From the NCBI GenBank assembly GCA_017470055.1, contig JAFUFD010000017.1:1-43927 (forward strand): 43,927 nt of DNA, in the 5' to 3' direction. This document shows positions 3,180 through 11,590 of the stretch, piece by piece. Under the pieces are notes generated by a model. It had not been told where the DNA came from and made no database searches. It worked only from the letters and a program-made list of their open reading frames with translations. Source of the stretch: Prevotella sp. GTDB taxonomy: Bacteria; Bacteroidota; Bacteroidia; Bacteroidales; Bacteroidaceae. Each line of letters opens with the position of its first letter. The first letter of the stretch is position 1. The position numbers were made by a program, and so were the translations under genes.

Positions 3180-3254
3180 GGTGCCCGTAGTTCAGTTGGT
3201 TAGAGCGTCAGATTGTGGTTCTGAATGTCGTGGGTTCGAGTCCCACCGGGCACC
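3180..3254 (+). tRNA. tRNA-His (anticodon GTG)
   Basis: A complete cloverleaf. The acceptor GTGCCCG (3181-3187) pairs with CGGGCAC (3247-3253), and C73 is at 3254. G at 3180 supplies the histidine-specific G-1. The anticodon stem TCAGA/TCTGA holds the loop TTGTGGT with anticodon GTG. The T arm is GTGGG-TTCGAGT-CCCAC. CCA is not fully encoded. The 3' end is the boundary between conserved backbone and an AT-rich accessory region. Confidence 0.97.
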
Positions 3255-3263
3255 CTTCAAAAC

Positions 3264-3457: not shown

Positions 3458-4444
3458 TTATTGAAACTTCTTCTCACCTCTCATTGCATCTTCGTACATG
3501 CCAATTGCAAATCGTCTAGGTTCTTCAAGTTTATCATACATTGCTTTAATCTCTGGAACCAGATTCACATAATCTACGATGAAAATGCTCATAAATGACA
3601 GGACACATTGTGTTGCATGTTTAGCCATCTCTTTATCTGCACGATATTCGTCTTTAAATGCATCTCGAAATTGGATTAGTGATAAATATGATGGATGCCC
3701 ATGAAGACTAAAGAAAGAATAAAGACTATTAAAAAGATTCTCTTTCACATTTAGCAATGTGTATGCCTTTTCATATTGAATAAATTCCATAGTATTGTCT
3801 TCTTTAAAAATATAACGGAATCTCTGCCCATTTCCAAGGGCATAATCAATTGTTGCTTTTGTTTGCTTGCCTAAAGTCTTATACAACTCTGTGTTTTCAA
3901 TCGCTTTTCTACAATTATCGATATCATTTTGTTCTTCCCGCACCCTTATTGGATTATGACTACGCATCTCTTCATCTAAGTCTTTTAGCCTTTCTGACAA
4001 GCCTTGAGCCATGAATAGATTATAAACAATAGTTTGTTGATCATCTGTTTTTGGAAGGACAAACAATAGCTCAAATGCGATAAGAGATTCATATACACTC
4101 CTTGCGATAGTAAATAGAATAGAAAAGTCTATTATGGGTTTAAGACGGATAGCACCTTTAGAATATCCAACGCCATCAAGCAAAGATAAAAATTGGCATC
4201 CCTTGCTAAACATAGTTTGCATCCAAATATTTCGGTCGTCTTCAATGTAAGATGTTGCTTTGCGTCCTTCAGGTGATTTCATGACATCAAAGTAGAAATC
4301 AAGAATCACCCGCAAATATTGCTTGCAATCATTAATTGTGTCCAATTGAATAAACTTTTGAACTTCTTCTATCGTTAGCTGCTTTTCGGATCTCGACTTA
4401 AGCAAATCTGATATTTTTTTCAGTTGTTCCTTGCTAAACTCCAT
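3458..4444 (-). CDS. Hypothetical helical protein of the island (possibly DUF5677-like)
   Basis: A 328-residue protein, mostly alpha-helical by composition, without signal peptide or clear membrane segments. Notable stretches are IARSVYESLIAFELLFVLP (central helix) and SLHGHPSYLSLIQFRDAFKD. The pairing of a buried ARxxxES helix with a HGHPS segment recalls DUF5677-type HEPN-like proteins, but I cannot confirm it. Its start is 2 bp after the stop of the AlbA/GHKL gene upstream, so the two are surely co-transcribed and probably co-operate. Base composition is AT-rich. No catalytic function is claimed. Confidence 0.6.
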   Translation of the reverse strand: MEFSKEQLKKISDLLKSRSEKQLTIEEVQKFIQLDTINDCKQYLRVILDFYFDVMKSPEGRKATSYIEDDRNIWMQTMFSKGCQFLSLLDGVGYSKGAIRLKPIIDFSILFTIARSVYESLIAFELLFVLPKTDDQQTIVYNLFMAQGLSERLKDLDEEMRSHNPIRVREEQNDIDNCRKAIENTELYKTLGKQTKATIDYALGNGQRFRYIFKEDNTMEFIQYEKAYTLLNVKENLFNSLYSFFSLHGHPSYLSLIQFRDAFKDEYRADKEMAKHATQCVLSFMSIFIVDYVNLVPEIKAMYDKLEEPRRFAIGMYEDAMRGEKKFQ

Positions 4445-4446
4445 TT

Positions 4447-6039
4447 TTATTTCCCTATTTTAATAACCCATTCACCTTCCTTGCGACCATCTTGGCGATC
4501 AATGTTGATTCCTATCTTTCGAATAGCATCGAATTCACGTTGAATGGTCTTTTTAGACACTTTCAGCTTTGTGGACATTTCCTGTTGAGTCACGTCAGGT
4601 GAAGTACATATCATTTTAAGTATAACAATCTGTCTTTCAGTAAGTTCCTTAAGGACATCTTTGTGGACATCTTTTAGGACATTCTTCAGGACATCAGGGA
4701 TAATCTTGTCTTCTTCCTGTGAACTATCTGGTGCTTTTTCTCTTGTTGCTATATCGGCTATAATATTGCCAGCCGCCTCATGGCAAGGGATGGTGATGCG
4801 GAAGAAGGTGCGCTCTTCATCTGTAACGACAATGGCGCGAGGCGACCCATTGGCTTTCAGCACATTCTGAATAGTGGGAATACCAGTGCTTCGTCCTTCT
4901 GTCATCTCTAATTCCTTCAGATATTCTCCCAAACGACGGTTACGATAACGCTTGGAGATAAGCAATTCACCACGACTGATATCAGCAGCAGGGATGCTCC
5001 GGTCTGGTCCACCTACGTTCTGGATGGTAATACCCTTGGGCTCCACTGTTATCACCACAGGCTCCCATTCCCGATAGTCACGATGATATAGCGAGTTCGT
5101 GATACTTTCCTCCAATGCCTGGTAGGGATAGGTGTAGAACTTGATGCTGTGGTTATCATTCTTGGGTTTTATGATGGTCTGCATTACCACCATACGATTC
5201 AGATACTCCAGCGTCCGCTCAATAATCTGTGTGACGGAACCTATAATGACAGGAGCCTCGTAGAGATTGTTGGGATTCACCAACCGTCCTTCTGGAAAGA
5301 ATACGATTTCCACCTGAGTCCTTTTGAAGAACTTGCCAGGATTCTCACAGAACATCATTGCCGCCACATTCCTCAGCATACGGTTTTCTGATGGGCCAAC
5401 AAACAAATCCATCTGCTCCAGAATCTCGCTCAGTGGTCTTTCATATAGTTCGTTGGCCAACTTGCTGCCCACCTTAACCAGATACTCACGAAGCAATAGC
5501 GTGGAAATGTCCTCTACTTTAATATCTGGATTCCCTCGTTCATCGAATGGCACACGACTTGCCAATTCACGTAGTTCGTCCAGCACTTCGCCCTTGGCAA
5601 TGATACTACTCGTACCACTACGGACATAGAAATACTCCTTGCTACCGCTCTTCGCTGTCACATTCTCAGGGACAAAATATGGTCTGTTAATGCCAGCAGG
5701 ACACCAAATCACCAGCACCTGCTTTCCGTCCACCTCCTCAACACTTGTCCTCGGCATATAATACGGTGACATCTTGTTGTTATAACTTACCATATCCTGA
5801 AGAATGCCGTCAATCTTTTCTATTGGGACACCTTCAACGGGACGGATAGCCATTCCTGTATCATCATCGCTATCTACGCCAACCAATATATACCCACCTC
5901 CAAGATCGTCAAAATCATTAGCGAAAGCACACACGCTATGGTAAATGCTTGCAGGATTCCAACCTTTCTTGAACTCAATCCTATTGGACTCAATCTTCTG
6001 CTTGTTCAGCAGGTCTTCTATGTTTATTGCCAGTGCCAT
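4447..6039 (-). CDS. AlbA_2 (Schlafen-type) DNA-binding domain protein with GHKL-like and winged-helix domains
   Basis: A 530-residue protein from the ATG at 6039. The AlbA_2 domain lies near residues 13-140, with NRIEFKKGW (19-27) and FANDFDDLGGGYILVGVDSDD (from about 39). A central region leads to an HATPase_c_4-like segment around 310-420 (LEESITNSLYHRDYREW, then NVGGPDRS and EGRSTGIPTIQN). The C-terminal winged helix (about 465-530) contains TQQEMSTKLKVSKKTIQREFDAI. A short Lys/Asp/Val/Leu repeat (VLKNVLKDVHKDVLKEL) links the last two. Such proteins are usually called transcriptional regulators and are frequent in defence islands. The longer frame to 6057 starts with TTG, which lies inside the -7 box, so 6039 is preferred. 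Its GC looks higher than that of the genes at 6151-11530. Confidence 0.8.
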   Translation of the reverse strand: MALAINIEDLLNKQKIESNRIEFKKGWNPASIYHSVCAFANDFDDLGGGYILVGVDSDDDTGMAIRPVEGVPIEKIDGILQDMVSYNNKMSPYYMPRTSVEEVDGKQVLVIWCPAGINRPYFVPENVTAKSGSKEYFYVRSGTSSIIAKGEVLDELRELASRVPFDERGNPDIKVEDISTLLLREYLVKVGSKLANELYERPLSEILEQMDLFVGPSENRMLRNVAAMMFCENPGKFFKRTQVEIVFFPEGRLVNPNNLYEAPVIIGSVTQIIERTLEYLNRMVVMQTIIKPKNDNHSIKFYTYPYQALEESITNSLYHRDYREWEPVVITVEPKGITIQNVGGPDRSIPAADISRGELLISKRYRNRRLGEYLKELEMTEGRSTGIPTIQNVLKANGSPRAIVVTDEERTFFRITIPCHEAAGNIIADIATREKAPDSSQEEDKIIPDVLKNVLKDVHKDVLKELTERQIVILKMICTSPDVTQQEMSTKLKVSKKTIQREFDAIRKIGINIDRQDGRKEGEWVIKIGK

Positions 6040-6054
6040 TTTCTTTTTTGTTTG

Positions 6055-6062
6055 CAAAGTTA
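6055..6062 (-). promoter_or_regulatory. -7 box for the AlbA_2 gene pair
   Basis: On the minus strand this reads TAACTTTG, a match to TAnnTTTG. Transcription would begin near 6048, giving a 5' leader of roughly 10 nt before the ATG at 6039. The -33 element is not well placed (a TTTG on the minus strand at 6075-6078 is too close). Confidence 0.5.
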
Positions 6063-6150: not shown

Positions 6151-7512
6151 TTATTCCATAATACACATATCATTCTCTCTATTATAACTAAAATTCAATA
6201 ATGGCTGAAGTTTTTTTAATATAGCATTTAATACAGGGACAGCAATAGAGTTCCCTGCTTGTCTATACATCTTAATGTCGTTAACAACTATTTTGAAATG
6301 TTCAAATCCCATTAGCCGAACACATTCATTAGGTGTCATTTTTCTAACCACAGCAGGATGGCCCTCATATTCACCAATATAAATACGAGGATCATTATAA
6401 TGTCTCTGTAGAGGATATTCCACCCGTAAGTCGCCTATCCAATTGTCTTGCTGATTAGCTGTTTGACATCCTATGATATCTCTATTTACTCTCGTTTTAT
6501 TTTTGTTTTTTGATTTTAATGTCGCCCATTCAAACCCTTTTTGCCCCAAATAATAAATATTATCTACATTTGCATCTAAATATTCTCTACTTGTCTTTGT
6601 CAATGGTATTGGGGAAGGAAATTGAAAACTTTCCTTCTTTGATATATCATTTCTAATGCCAACCACGAAAATACGCTCTCTCATTTGTGGTAATCCATAA
6701 TTTTGTGCATCAAGAACTTTGGGGTATATCTTATAATTTAGTTTCTCAAAAATATTCTTTATTATTTCCCACGTTCGCCCTTTATCGTGAGTTAACAGGC
6801 CCTTTACATTTTCATATATAAAAACTTTAGGGCTAATTTCTTTAATCAACCTAGCGTAATCATAAAACAAAGTTCCTCGTGCGTCTTCAAGTCCTTTTTT
6901 CTTTCCGTAAGTTGAAAAACTTTGACATGGGCTACCACCACAAAAAAGATCAACTAAGCCATTGTATTGCTTTCCATCCAAAAAACGGACATCTTCATAC
7001 CATGCATTGTTTTCTATTTGATAGTTTGCCAAATACGATTTCTTAACAAAGTTTGGCATTCTAGTTGTCGCATACCACTCTTCTACGAAATTATGTACTT
7101 CTTCCTTGGTTAAGATATTCTTGGCTTCTGCCATTTCTTCATATCTTAACTTAAATTTGAAACACTCTTCCTCAAAAAACATATCATCCAAAGAGTCTAT
7201 TTTCTTTATAGCAGCTTTTGTATCTAACGGTCTTATCTCATTATATAGATTGTGAACATCTTCCTCTAAGACCGCATTTCTAATTTTTCTTTTTGTAAAA
7301 ATATAATTAACATAAAATCTTATCAATTCTTCTGCTTTATCATCTGACAAAACACTCTTTGCAACTTTATATATTGTTTTTAAATCTGTTTTTGGCTCTC
7401 TTTCACCATTATCACAAGCAAATTTTATTACATGATTAATCTTTAATTGCTTCAAAGATTCTTCCAATGCTCCAATGCCACTAAATACGGTGGCAACTCT
7501 TAATTCTTGCAT
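6151..7512 (-). CDS. DNA (cytosine-5) methyltransferase with a large insertion
   Basis: C5-MTase motifs appear in order (numbered from the GTG at 7518, two codons upstream): motif I VFSGIGALE (11-19), motif IV GGSPCQSFS with catalytic Cys198, motif VI YENVKG (235-240), motif VIII QNYGLPQMRERIFVVG (272-287), motif IX RKMTPNECVRLMGF (392-405), motif X YRQAGNSIAVPVLNAI (418-433). The enzyme would methylate cytosine C5 within a sequence supplied by the variable region at about 290-390. Motif I and PCQ are about 180 residues apart, whereas typical enzymes have about 60-80. The extra segment (about 35-165) is charged and helical. The ATG at 7512 (453 residues) is preferred over the GTG at 7518. It begins 8 bp after the DUF6339-like gene and closes the operon. 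The gene is strongly AT-rich, as expected for a transferred modification gene. Confidence 0.93.
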   Translation of the reverse strand: MQELRVATVFSGIGALEESLKQLKINHVIKFACDNGEREPKTDLKTIYKVAKSVLSDDKAEELIRFYVNYIFTKRKIRNAVLEEDVHNLYNEIRPLDTKAAIKKIDSLDDMFFEEECFKFKLRYEEMAEAKNILTKEEVHNFVEEWYATTRMPNFVKKSYLANYQIENNAWYEDVRFLDGKQYNGLVDLFCGGSPCQSFSTYGKKKGLEDARGTLFYDYARLIKEISPKVFIYENVKGLLTHDKGRTWEIIKNIFEKLNYKIYPKVLDAQNYGLPQMRERIFVVGIRNDISKKESFQFPSPIPLTKTSREYLDANVDNIYYLGQKGFEWATLKSKNKNKTRVNRDIIGCQTANQQDNWIGDLRVEYPLQRHYNDPRIYIGEYEGHPAVVRKMTPNECVRLMGFEHFKIVVNDIKMYRQAGNSIAVPVLNAILKKLQPLLNFSYNRENDMCIME

Positions 7513-7520
7513 AAACACTA

Positions 7521-8237
7521 TTATTCTTCTAATGTAAAATCAATTTTATCAACACATTCTTGTACTATTTCTTTCGCATACTCACTTGCACCGCCAGAAC
7601 ACAAATCAGGATCTATTACTTGTGGCTTAGCAAGGGCCAGTTTCATAATACTTCTAAACAGTTTTATATTATCAACAGCCTTTGTCGGGTTGCAGTTAAC
7701 GAAATGGTACATTATACTTCTATACAAATCTATGTACGTACCATTTCTTCCTGGTCGTTCAACTAGATTCAAAATTGTATCAGAGCAGCAACGAGAAGAC
7801 GACAGAATTTTATTTGTTGGCTCAATATCCCCCTGCCAAGATAAGTGAGCATACCAATATAATGTATATGGCCAAATTCGTAAGCCTTTTGCATAATAGT
7901 GTCTATCATCTTCTGCTCCAAATCTATCAAACACCAAATCTGGTATTACTATCAAAGCAATATAGCTCCAAAATTCATAATCAGCAGCAATCCTATCAGT
8001 CATCCATTCTTTTCTATGAAAGTAATTATAAAATAATAAAGAGAATCTATAATCCAGTTGATAGTCTTTATAACCAGATTGTTTCAGCTCGTGATATTTC
8101 TCTACCAAATAATTTCTAATGTCTAAGTAATCACTATCGAGTCGGTTAGACCAATCAATTGACAAAAAATCACAACCTTCCTTAATGCGTTCATACGCAC
8201 TCTTTGATTGTGCTCTTGATAATGTTTGTATGTTCAT
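7521..8237 (-). CDS. DUF6339-like protein of the methyltransferase operon
   Basis: A 238-residue soluble protein very rich in Tyr, Trp and Arg. Characteristic stretches are EFWSYIALIVIPDLVFDRFG, RIWPYTLYWYAHLSWQGD and LVERPGRNGTYIDLYRSIMYHF. This pattern matches my memory of the DUF6339 family, often seen beside DNA methyltransferases and ATPases in bacterial defence loci; a profile search would settle it. The biochemical function is unknown. Its ATG overlaps the stop of the upstream gene (ATGA at 8234-8237), showing translational coupling, and its stop is 8 bp before the methyltransferase. Confidence 0.72.
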   Translation of the reverse strand: MNIQTLSRAQSKSAYERIKEGCDFLSIDWSNRLDSDYLDIRNYLVEKYHELKQSGYKDYQLDYRFSLLFYNYFHRKEWMTDRIAADYEFWSYIALIVIPDLVFDRFGAEDDRHYYAKGLRIWPYTLYWYAHLSWQGDIEPTNKILSSSRCCSDTILNLVERPGRNGTYIDLYRSIMYHFVNCNPTKAVDNIKLFRSIMKLALAKPQVIDPDLCSGGASEYAKEIVQECVDKIDFTLEE

Positions 8238-9232
8238 AGATTGCCAAGTTTTAAATCAAAATACTTATGTACGGATATAGAAGTTTCAATAGGTGATGTG
8301 AGGTCGATGTTCATAGGCTCTTTCTGGAATCCTTTCACGACTTCAGCTACACAACCAGATTCCCAACCTTCTTCATCATTAAGGAAATCTTGTAGGTTAG
8401 TATATTCTGACTCATTTTTATTTTGCCAATTTTGTAGCGTATTAATGTATAGTGACAGTGCACTTGCAAGTATTTCCTTTAATAAAACAGGAGAGAACTT
8501 AGTCTTCACATCTTGATTTATATATTTGTAATCCTTATGTGCTTTATTTAATTGAATCTTCACGGCATCTGACCCCCATGGTGTAAATCGAGGATCTTTT
8601 TCTGAAACAGATAATTTCCACAGGGGCGCATCAGGATCGTCAAAAAGTTCAATTGGAAAGTTTTCCTCCTTAGCGTCAATGTCCAGTATACATATTTGAT
8701 CTTCACCTATAATAGTCCCTTTTGTGTTTGGCAAATGCCGCTCAACTAGAGAACCTACAACATCGCTGTTAATGTATAATTCGTAATAAAATGTTACAGA
8801 GCCTCTCAATTCTGCCTTATCAAAAACAATACAGAATTTGATTTCCTGTCTTTCTAAACTTTTATTTATATCTCCAATAAACTTAACACCTCTTTTTTTA
8901 GATTTCCCACTACACCACCTTACTGCCAAACCAATTGATGATTCTTTTGGAGCGATACCATTTTCTCCATATAAGCCAATAGGGTTCGTAATAATGAATA
9001 CACCTGATACTTTTAAGTTGTGGGTATCTGGCGTCCAAACCCCTTGAGAGTCGTATAACTGATAAAAAAGTGAGTTCGTACTAGTTTTCTCTAAAGGATA
9101 GTTTTTCGTTTCATCGTCTTCAAAAACGTCATAAGAAAAGGACAATTCATAAGAAATCTCATCAATAGATACTTTATTCTTTTGCTTAACCCTGTCGCTT
9201 AACGACGGATATGTGGTAATATTAATAGGCAT
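8234..9232 (-). CDS. Unknown protein of the methyltransferase operon
   Basis: A 332-residue protein with no signal peptide and no motif I recognise. The N-terminal two thirds look beta-rich (KVSGVFIITNPIGLYG, IKFCIVFDKAELRGSVTFYYELYI). The C-terminus (about 235-330) is helical (SPVLLKEILASALSLYINTLQNW). I looked for PD-(D/E)xK, HNH and GIY-YIG signatures and did not see a convincing one. It lies between the GHKL ATPase (12-bp gap) and the DUF6339-like gene (4-bp overlap). The architecture would suit a DNA- or partner-binding subunit, or a highly diverged nuclease; neither can be shown from the sequence. Confidence 0.7.
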   Translation of the reverse strand: MPINITTYPSLSDRVKQKNKVSIDEISYELSFSYDVFEDDETKNYPLEKTSTNSLFYQLYDSQGVWTPDTHNLKVSGVFIITNPIGLYGENGIAPKESSIGLAVRWCSGKSKKRGVKFIGDINKSLERQEIKFCIVFDKAELRGSVTFYYELYINSDVVGSLVERHLPNTKGTIIGEDQICILDIDAKEENFPIELFDDPDAPLWKLSVSEKDPRFTPWGSDAVKIQLNKAHKDYKYINQDVKTKFSPVLLKEILASALSLYINTLQNWQNKNESEYTNLQDFLNDEEGWESGCVAEVVKGFQKEPMNIDLTSPIETSISVHKYFDLKLGNL

Positions 9233-9244
9233 AATTATGTACTG

Positions 9245-11278
9245 TTAAAATTTGATAATAGGAAGTAAATCTTTTCTCTTTAACGAAATTGTAATAGTGA
9301 TACAGGCTGAGAACTTATGCTTTTGGTTGTCTTTTGAAGAAAATTTAAGTCCATAGGTTTCACTATGTTTGATAGTCCTTATTAAAGAAACATCGAAATA
9401 ATCATTAATATTTTGATCATCATTAATATTGTAACTTTCTATGGAAAATGGAGACATAAGCCCTGTTTCCTGTTCCCATTTATCACAATCAACAAAAAGA
9501 GTGTCAACCGTCGTTCCAAGAAGTAAAGTGGCTTTTGTCACTCCTTTGGACTTTGGTTTGGACATTGCTTTTACTGTGAATGAAATACTATTTTGCGAAT
9601 AAATAATATCATCATCCATAATATAATTTATACCATTATCTTCTTTTATAGTATCATCTCTGTGAGAATGACCTCCGCCAGTACCTTTTTTTGACGGATG
9701 AATTGCTAAAATCTTTCCTAATAGCACACTAAGTCCAGATAATGATTTTGTCTCTTCATTTTCTGTCTTTGTAGAAAATTTCTCATTTAAGATAGCGCAA
9801 CATTGGTTTTTAATCCTTGTTATACAATATAATTTACGTTGATTTTCCCCAACAGAGTGATCTTGCCAACCAAGGTGATCTGCGCATTCGCTTTGTCGAA
9901 CATATTCTTCCAATTCTATCTCTCGCATGTCGCCGCCTGTAAATGACAACTTTTGTGTTGAATTTAATACAAAAATGGCGAGAATATAATCTTCATCATT
10001 AGTTTTGGGAAGAGGGCTCCACGAAGCGGGATTATACTCAACTATCATTCCTGGTTGTCTTGTCATGCAAATAATTGGAGTATTTTCTTGACCATTTTCA
10101 TTATAAATATTAAGGAAAGGATACGGACTTTTCGCATTAGGTACCAAATCCTCTTTTTTTATTGGAGTATAAGCCAAAACACCGACATCTGTGGAATAAT
10201 AACGAATAACCTCTGTATAGATTTTTTCATTAAGAATGGCTTCATTGTCCATCTTTTTAAGCGCACTATTATACAATTCTTGGGTGTACTTAAATATAGG
10301 TAGCATCTGGTCTGTAGTGATTTCCTCACCATTAATAGAGGCTTTTAAATACTTAACTATCTTATCATATCTTTTATAATGGCTTTGATATTGTGGATTA
10401 TTAAGCCTAGGGGAGTACCAGCGCTGAATGGCTACCCTAAATTCATCTTCTATTGATAATTTTCCAGCATAAAAAAATGAGTCATTCTCAAAGTCAAGAC
10501 TTAACTCTATGCTATTCTCATTTAGGAGAGCTTGCTCGTTTATATAAGGAATAATAACAATAGTACCGACTTCATTGTTTACATATGGTTCAATCTCAAA
10601 TATTTTTAAAAATTCTTTTATACAAACCTCGTCAGTTATTGGATATGTGTTCTTTTTTTTATCAATGTCACCCCACCAAGCAATGCCACTTTTATTATTA
10701 TTATCATCGTATGGTGGCAATATGGCATCTCTAGATTGTTCATTTTCACACATTACCGCACACAATCTCGACTCATATCCACCATTCTCTTTCTTTATGC
10801 GGCTATAATATATAACAAGACCAATTTGGCTGATACGATAATATAACGTCTTACCATAGCCCCATGATCCACCTGCACCAAGTTCTTCTTGTGGCTTCCC
10901 AACATGATAAACTAACTTTTGTAAATTCCCGTACTTGTTGTCTCGTACCTCAGAACGTTTTAAGGGTCCCGTCAACCCCGTTGTGTTTGTGTCTTTTACA
11001 GCAACAAACTTATAACTTTCATTATTAAACCGATTATTTAATCTATCTGTAATACCACCCAAGGAAAGATTAAGTTTATTCGCTTTAAACTCTTTGATAA
11101 TAAAATCAATGCTTACATAGGGAATTGGTATCTCTTTATCACCTGCATCTAAACTATTTTGTATAGATTCTCTTATAAACAAATCTATCAATGGATCAGA
11201 ATTGTTTTGTATTGCTCGAAGTACGGATGAGCCAACTTGTCCCATGTTTGCTGTTGGGTCCAATTGTAACATTTTCAT
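9245..11278 (-). CDS. GHKL (MutL/MORC-like) ATPase of the methyltransferase operon
   Basis: A 677-residue protein with a clear N-terminal GHKL ATP-binding fold: N-box RESIQNSLDAG with Glu37, Asn41 and Asp44; G1 box VKDTNTTGLTG with Asp96; G2 lid GAGGSWGYGKT at 134-144. Established work (Iyer, Abhiman and Aravind 2008) describes prokaryotic MutL/MORC-type ATPases inside restriction-modification operons. This gene, in a row with a C5 methyltransferase, fits that idea. Such ATPases dimerise on ATP binding and may act as DNA clamps. The C-terminal half (about 250-677) is not recognisable to me. It follows the 79-residue gene by 12 bp and precedes the unknown gene by 12 bp. Very AT-rich. Confidence 0.85.
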   Translation of the reverse strand: MKMLQLDPTANMGQVGSSVLRAIQNNSDPLIDLFIRESIQNSLDAGDKEIPIPYVSIDFIIKEFKANKLNLSLGGITDRLNNRFNNESYKFVAVKDTNTTGLTGPLKRSEVRDNKYGNLQKLVYHVGKPQEELGAGGSWGYGKTLYYRISQIGLVIYYSRIKKENGGYESRLCAVMCENEQSRDAILPPYDDNNNKSGIAWWGDIDKKKNTYPITDEVCIKEFLKIFEIEPYVNNEVGTIVIIPYINEQALLNENSIELSLDFENDSFFYAGKLSIEDEFRVAIQRWYSPRLNNPQYQSHYKRYDKIVKYLKASINGEEITTDQMLPIFKYTQELYNSALKKMDNEAILNEKIYTEVIRYYSTDVGVLAYTPIKKEDLVPNAKSPYPFLNIYNENGQENTPIICMTRQPGMIVEYNPASWSPLPKTNDEDYILAIFVLNSTQKLSFTGGDMREIELEEYVRQSECADHLGWQDHSVGENQRKLYCITRIKNQCCAILNEKFSTKTENEETKSLSGLSVLLGKILAIHPSKKGTGGGHSHRDDTIKEDNGINYIMDDDIIYSQNSISFTVKAMSKPKSKGVTKATLLLGTTVDTLFVDCDKWEQETGLMSPFSIESYNINDDQNINDYFDVSLIRTIKHSETYGLKFSSKDNQKHKFSACITITISLKRKDLLPIIKF

Positions 11279-11290
11279 TTCTATAGGTAA

Positions 11291-11530
11291 CTATTTGTTA
11301 AAGGTAAAACCAGATTTTCCATTACCCTTGCTAAGTTCGTTTGCATAAACTGCCTTAGCATCTTTGAGAGCCTTTGAGATTTCCTCAAACATGTGGTTCA
11401 CGTCTTCCTCGTCATACTCGTAGTTTCTACGATTCGAGCAATTTTGCAAAAGGTTCAAATAATCAATGATTTTCTGTACCCGATTAGTAGCAACTTTAGT
11501 AAATCTTTTACGTCTAGAATTTTCAGCCAT
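11291..11530 (-). CDS. Small basic first protein of the methyltransferase operon
   Basis: 79 residues. A very basic N-terminus (SRRKRFTKVATNRVQKIIDYLNLLQNCSNRRNY) is followed by an acidic helix (EYDEEDVNHMFEEISKALKDAKAVY) and a Gly/Ser/Lys tail. There is no HTH I can recognise and no Cys pair for zinc. I recall similar short proteins leading operons of this kind, but the family name escapes me. It has its own promoter about 20 nt upstream, and the ATPase gene follows by 12 bp. Possible roles are a DNA-binding or complex-stabilising subunit, or an operon regulator. Confidence 0.75.
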   Translation of the reverse strand: MAENSRRKRFTKVATNRVQKIIDYLNLLQNCSNRRNYEYDEEDVNHMFEEISKALKDAKAVYANELSKGNGKSGFTFNK

Positions 11531-11557
11531 AGATCAATACTTTTGTTAATTTAACTG

Positions 11558-11590
11558 CAAATATAGTCTATATTTTTGAAATATATACAA
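11558..11590 (-). promoter_or_regulatory. Promoter of the methyltransferase/GHKL operon
   Basis: On the minus strand TATATTTG (11558-11565) matches the Bacteroidota -7 box. A TTG (11588-11590) lies 22 bp further upstream, slightly longer than the usual 19-21 spacing. The predicted start of transcription is near 11551, giving a leader of about 20 nt before the ATG at 11530. Confidence 0.55.

Follow-up and report, generated by a model that had tools for sequence, protein, structure and literature searches.

The window analysed here, a 43,927-nucleotide contig of Prevotella sp. (JAFUFD010000017.1, assembly GCA_017470055.1), carries a minus-strand operon of five genes at positions 6151-11530. On the evidence of sequence comparison, these genes form a mobile cassette that is still maintained under selection in one lineage, represented by two genomes. 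The cassette keeps the methyltransferase and the clamp-like GHKL ATPase of a known restriction system without its helicase and nuclease, and adds a small protein, here termed P5. The relevant features, all on the minus strand, are as follows.

11558..11565, minus strand: promoter-like TATATTTG box that precedes P5 by 27 bp and is kept in the related locus L016 (sequence comparison)
11291..11530, minus strand: P5, 79 residues, basic (pI 9.3), first gene of the operon (open reading frame list)
9245..11278, minus strand: paraMORC2-type GHKL ATPase, 677 residues, homologue of PADLOC PDC-M33A (motifs, profile comparison)
8234..9232, minus strand: P3, 332 residues, distant PDC-M33B homologue (profile comparison)
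7521..8237, minus strand: DUF6339-family protein, 238 residues, distant PDC-M33C homologue (Pfam matches of relatives, profile comparison)
6151..7518, minus strand: C5 methyltransferase, 455 residues from a GTG at 7518 or 453 from an ATG at 7512 (PF00145)
6197..11589, minus strand: extent of the mobile cassette, a single uninterrupted block of DNA identity with L016 (85.7%)

A mobile operon under purifying selection

The operon limits proposed in the initial annotation were confirmed, with junctions, from P5 to the methyltransferase, of a 12-bp gap, a second 12-bp gap, a 4-bp overlap and a gap of 2 bp (GTG start) or 8 bp (ATG start). Expression from a single promoter, also proposed there, fits the TATATTTG-like box ahead of P5, which we take to be the Bacteroidota -7 motif and which is conserved in L016. 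All five genes recur in identical order in L016, as expected if they belong together, and the two loci share no DNA match beyond the identity block. The cassette is markedly poor in guanine and cytosine (GC), with a fraction of 0.336 in 6151-11530 against 0.504 in 12137-43927, and its L016 copy is likewise of low GC content (0.334, against 0.509 in the first 9 kb of that locus).

Nonsynonymous and synonymous substitution rates (dN and dS), computed by the NG86 method on window-L016 gene pairs, were 0.011/0.679 for P5 (a ratio of about 0.02), 0.098/0.632 for the GHKL ATPase, 0.097/0.524 for P3, 0.067/0.754 for the DUF6339-family protein and 0.054/0.555 for the methyltransferase, which is 88.7% identical between the loci. 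Because L016 repeats both the genes and their order, and because dS exceeds dN in every gene (about 5- to 60-fold), the five-gene set is more than a chance assembly. A non-functional remnant of a decaying restriction-modification (RM) operon, which the two missing subunits might bring to mind, is accordingly a highly improbable explanation: intact frames in both genomes at dS of about 0.5-0.8, with dN/dS of 0.02-0.19, largely refute decay, and P5 is a gene gained, so that the change is not one of loss alone.

Among the five proteins, firm recognition by Pfam, PADLOC and NCBIfam was limited to the C5 methyltransferase (PF00145, 3.6e-70), in agreement with its initial assignment. Its core is 61.5-63.1% identical to those of the enzymes in L047 and L049-L051. 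The GHKL protein matched PADLOC PDC-M33A weakly (2.2e-10), and P5, P3 and the DUF6339-family protein had no match above cut-off in these three collections; the one NCBIfam match of P5, to an N-glycosylase/DNA lyase, lies far below the threshold (17.8 of the 368 bits required; E = 0.0017). None of the five proteins gave an above-threshold match to a nuclease family, as first reported, and the operon shows no recognised cognate restriction endonuclease of the kind that defines an RM system. The two restriction subunits are absent from the operon and yielded no matches in genomes G000 and G591, whereas the same searches were positive for both in G592 and G294; C. glutamicum served as a positive control for one subunit, and 14 named controls were negative for the other.

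Conserved features of the GHKL ATPase and its partners

The GHKL motifs originally read in the 677-residue protein were verified in an alignment (A7) of 38 rows that includes the window, in which R36, E37, Q40, N41, S42, D44, A45, G136, G137, W139, G140, G142, K143 and T144 are invariant. The residues that make up the paraMORC2 ATP-binding motifs (E37, N41, D44, D96, T99, G101, G136, G137, G140, G142 and K143) are likewise invariant in A7. An ExxxH motif, E464-x3-H468, is preserved in 9/9 rows of one alignment and in 38/38 of A7. It lies within a Y-x-R-x-x-E-x-x-D-H-x-x-W-x-D cluster (residues 459-473, window positions 9860-9904), a possible metal or substrate site. The GHKL tree was a quick inference carrying a long-branch warning, from which L068 (odd length) was dropped and L064 was absent. 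L061 was excluded as a copy of the L009 contig. An earlier 43-row count of gene neighbours had included three fragments of one broken L064 gene; the recount of 41 contigs applies a less strict downstream limit, under which L016 also enters, and counts the two L009 copies, admitted by hand, as one contig and L064 as another. The contig scan for relatives relied on a pair of peptide patterns and was not an exhaustive search.

The description of the fourth protein as DUF6339-like holds through its relatives in L015 and L101, which match PF19866 at 1.5e-5 and 1.9e-35, respectively; the window protein itself has no Pfam match at E ≤ 1. D62, R105, R120, T141 and R161 are invariant in all 45 rows of the DUF6339 alignment. 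No nuclease signature was seen in P3.

P5 belongs to a family of 75- to 79-residue proteins with no Pfam model above cut-off, half of which (5/10) match phrog_35258, a PHROG of unknown function and the sole entry for P5 in the libraries searched. P5 matched ten plasmid records at E ≤ 0.1, and six of these (L076-L080 and L083) were examined. Of its genome matches, L098-L103 and L123 were examined, with G643 (E = 7.4e-4) left out. P5 often lies upstream of GHKL genes, with a GHKL neighbour in 11/13 loci, a count in which L078 and L079 were judged solely by sequence likeness to L076, and in which the matches in L076 (0.0031), L102 (1.7e-4), L103 (0.094) and L123 (3.8e-4) fall under the Pfam curated cut-off.

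The contexts of P5 are varied. In the Agrobacterium, Rhizobium and Dinoroseobacter plasmids L076, L078 and L079, P5 sits beside another GHKL-like protein; in L076 an ATP-binding protein comes next and then a UvrD helicase, an order that we take to be Gabija-like. In L103 (2757-8819) and L123 (1204-7469), the P5 operon encodes a ~753-residue protein with a weak HATPase_c_3 match, an N4/N6-type methyltransferase, a ~260- to 320-residue protein of unknown function and a ~510-residue HATPase protein, the methyltransferase and ~510-residue assignments being Pfam-based only in L103. In L101 (5158-10832), P5, the GHKL gene, a gene in the P3 position and a DUF6339 gene encoding 471 residues are immediately preceded by an Xre-like regulator, recognised by eye, together with a short reverse transcriptase (RVT_1). 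Stand-alone P5 homologues, 36-39% identical to the window protein, occur amid small genes of Synechococcus phages S-CRES3 and S-N03 (L081 and L082), where they might serve the phages as decoys against systems built on P5 and a GHKL protein.

The three-gene core and previously described systems

PADLOC requires three models for PDC-M33, and only model A matched the window directly. Profile-profile comparison nonetheless aligned the window's GHKL, P3 and DUF6339 proteins with the PDC-M33 trio (hhalign probabilities of 99.7, 92.5 and 91.7), in matching gene order, and by this measure the trio is a distant sister of the three-gene core. Two of the P5-type loci, L077 and L098, give strong matches to PDC-M33. 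In P5-type loci the P3-position proteins, and in L100 also the DUF6339-position protein, were placed by position and alignment rather than by window-family models.

Relatives of the core adjoin diverse nucleases: type II restriction endonucleases in L077, L105, L108 and L109, MutH/Sau3AI in L080 and GIY-YIG in L106 (all by annotation), and Mrr in L013 (by Pfam). AlwI-type enzymes are among the type II endonucleases beside relatives, and Vsr and the defence genes AbiG and Shedu also occur there. In L098 and L100 the core is accompanied by a C5 methyltransferase and Vsr, with no restriction nuclease among the ten neighbours scanned with Pfam (five per locus). The nuclease partners of the core are therefore exchangeable, and sometimes not visible.

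Among the closest known systems is the putative defence system 'Type I' of Miller et al. 2022 (PMC9523054). ParaMORC2 GHKL ATPases were placed by Iyer, Abhiman and Aravind in 2008 (PMC2292703) in contexts with a helicase, a restriction endonuclease-fold nuclease and a C5 methylase. The cassette shares with those operons a GHKL ATPase with invariant ExxxH but has neither helicase nor nuclease, and P5 is not mentioned in the portions of that article consulted. As far as the consulted sources describe them, MzaABCDE (Gao et al. 2020, through its citation in PMC9523054, and PADLOC models) differs in having AIPR and a sigma factor, both absent from the window operon, and CglI/NgoAVII (Zaremba et al. 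2014, PMC4267653) comprises three genes with no GHKL protein mentioned, its N- and R-type subunits being precisely those that the cassette lacks through loss. VcSduA (GHKL-Shedu/paraMORC3, PMC12137116) likewise has a GHKL ATPase, whose site is essential for its anti-phage activity, but in the text seen it is fused to an essential nuclease and no methyltransferase is described. The parent restriction system appears to be in print already, and PADLOC has an entry for the PDC-M33 core. The titles, abstracts and passages retrieved from open-licence PubMed Central contained no mention of PDC-M33, of DUF6339 or of a variant that has P5 but neither helicase nor nuclease; as P5 has no searchable name, a published account of it could have escaped these searches.

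Possible modes of action

The initial interpretation of the operon as a defence system is partly supported by these results, and several modes of action can be considered. The core might be a recognition and loading module for a nuclease that is encoded elsewhere, by the host or by an RM system, and cuts in trans, a real possibility although not a probable one. The interchangeable nucleases beside its relatives (AlwI-type and other type II endonucleases, MutH/Sau3AI, GIY-YIG, Mrr and Vsr) are consistent with this, as are a C5 methyltransferase-PDDEXK_7-Vsr locus elsewhere in G591 and contig C35 of G000, which carries Vsr and an N6 methyltransferase adjoined by two reading frames without Pfam match that could be an unrecognised restriction endonuclease. 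Yet the cassette moves alone, no recognised nuclease lies beside it in the window, and none was seen linked to it in L016, where the contig ends 2.1 kb past the methyltransferase and one reading frame fell outside the Pfam scan.

We tentatively put forward another possibility, a speculative one: restriction without a restriction enzyme. P5 would act as a small adaptor that loads the paraMORC2 clamp onto DNA lacking the 5-methylcytosine mark of the partner methyltransferase, and the clamp would silence this foreign DNA through ATP-driven topological entrapment, which would make it the bacterial equivalent of MORC silencing in eukaryotes. Several GHKL defence clamps would then have P5 in common as their adaptor, and its stand-alone copies in Synechococcus phages could be decoys.

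It is unlikely that the four other proteins instead control or escort the methyltransferase, in an epigenetic or anti-restriction role with no attack on DNA. Retention of a well-conserved methyltransferase (88.7% identity, dN 0.054) and loss of the restriction subunits would suit such a role, but in relatives the core accompanies nucleases as well as the defence genes AbiG and Shedu, and in L012 no C5 methyltransferase lies within 7 kb of the three-gene core, other methyltransferase types being outside the search.

More doubtful still is a cryptic nuclease, with a metal-dependent active site in the GHKL 459-473 cluster or in the Arg/Asp-rich DUF6339 protein. The invariance of E464, D467 and H468 (38/38 rows; D473, 37/38) and of the five DUF6339 residues invites this idea, as does the naming of ExxxH as a possible substrate site in the consulted part of PMC2292703. 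Against it, D467 is replaced by Ala in the distant L010-L015 rows of the nine-row alignment, the A7, A5 and A6 profiles matched no nuclease in PDB and showed no similarity to DUF4420/Vsr, and most relatives sharing these residues also have a dedicated nuclease (41-contig recount).

Neighbouring genes

Between tRNA-His (3181-3255) and the cassette, the minus strand carries an AlbA_2/HATPase_c_4/HTH protein and a DUF5677 protein separated by 2 bp (3458-6057; GC 0.41), which may be another pair with a role in defence or regulation.

Implications

The cassette amounts to a natural deletion experiment, documented in one lineage and two genomes, in which the helicase and nuclease were removed from a paraMORC restriction operon and the remainder stayed under selection. 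It draws attention to P5 as a companion of several GHKL families, and it makes directly testable a question dating from 2008, namely what role prokaryotic MORC-like ATPases play in RM systems and whether they allow restriction without cutting. The cassette may thereby reveal whether clamp-like motors can fight foreign DNA without cleavage.
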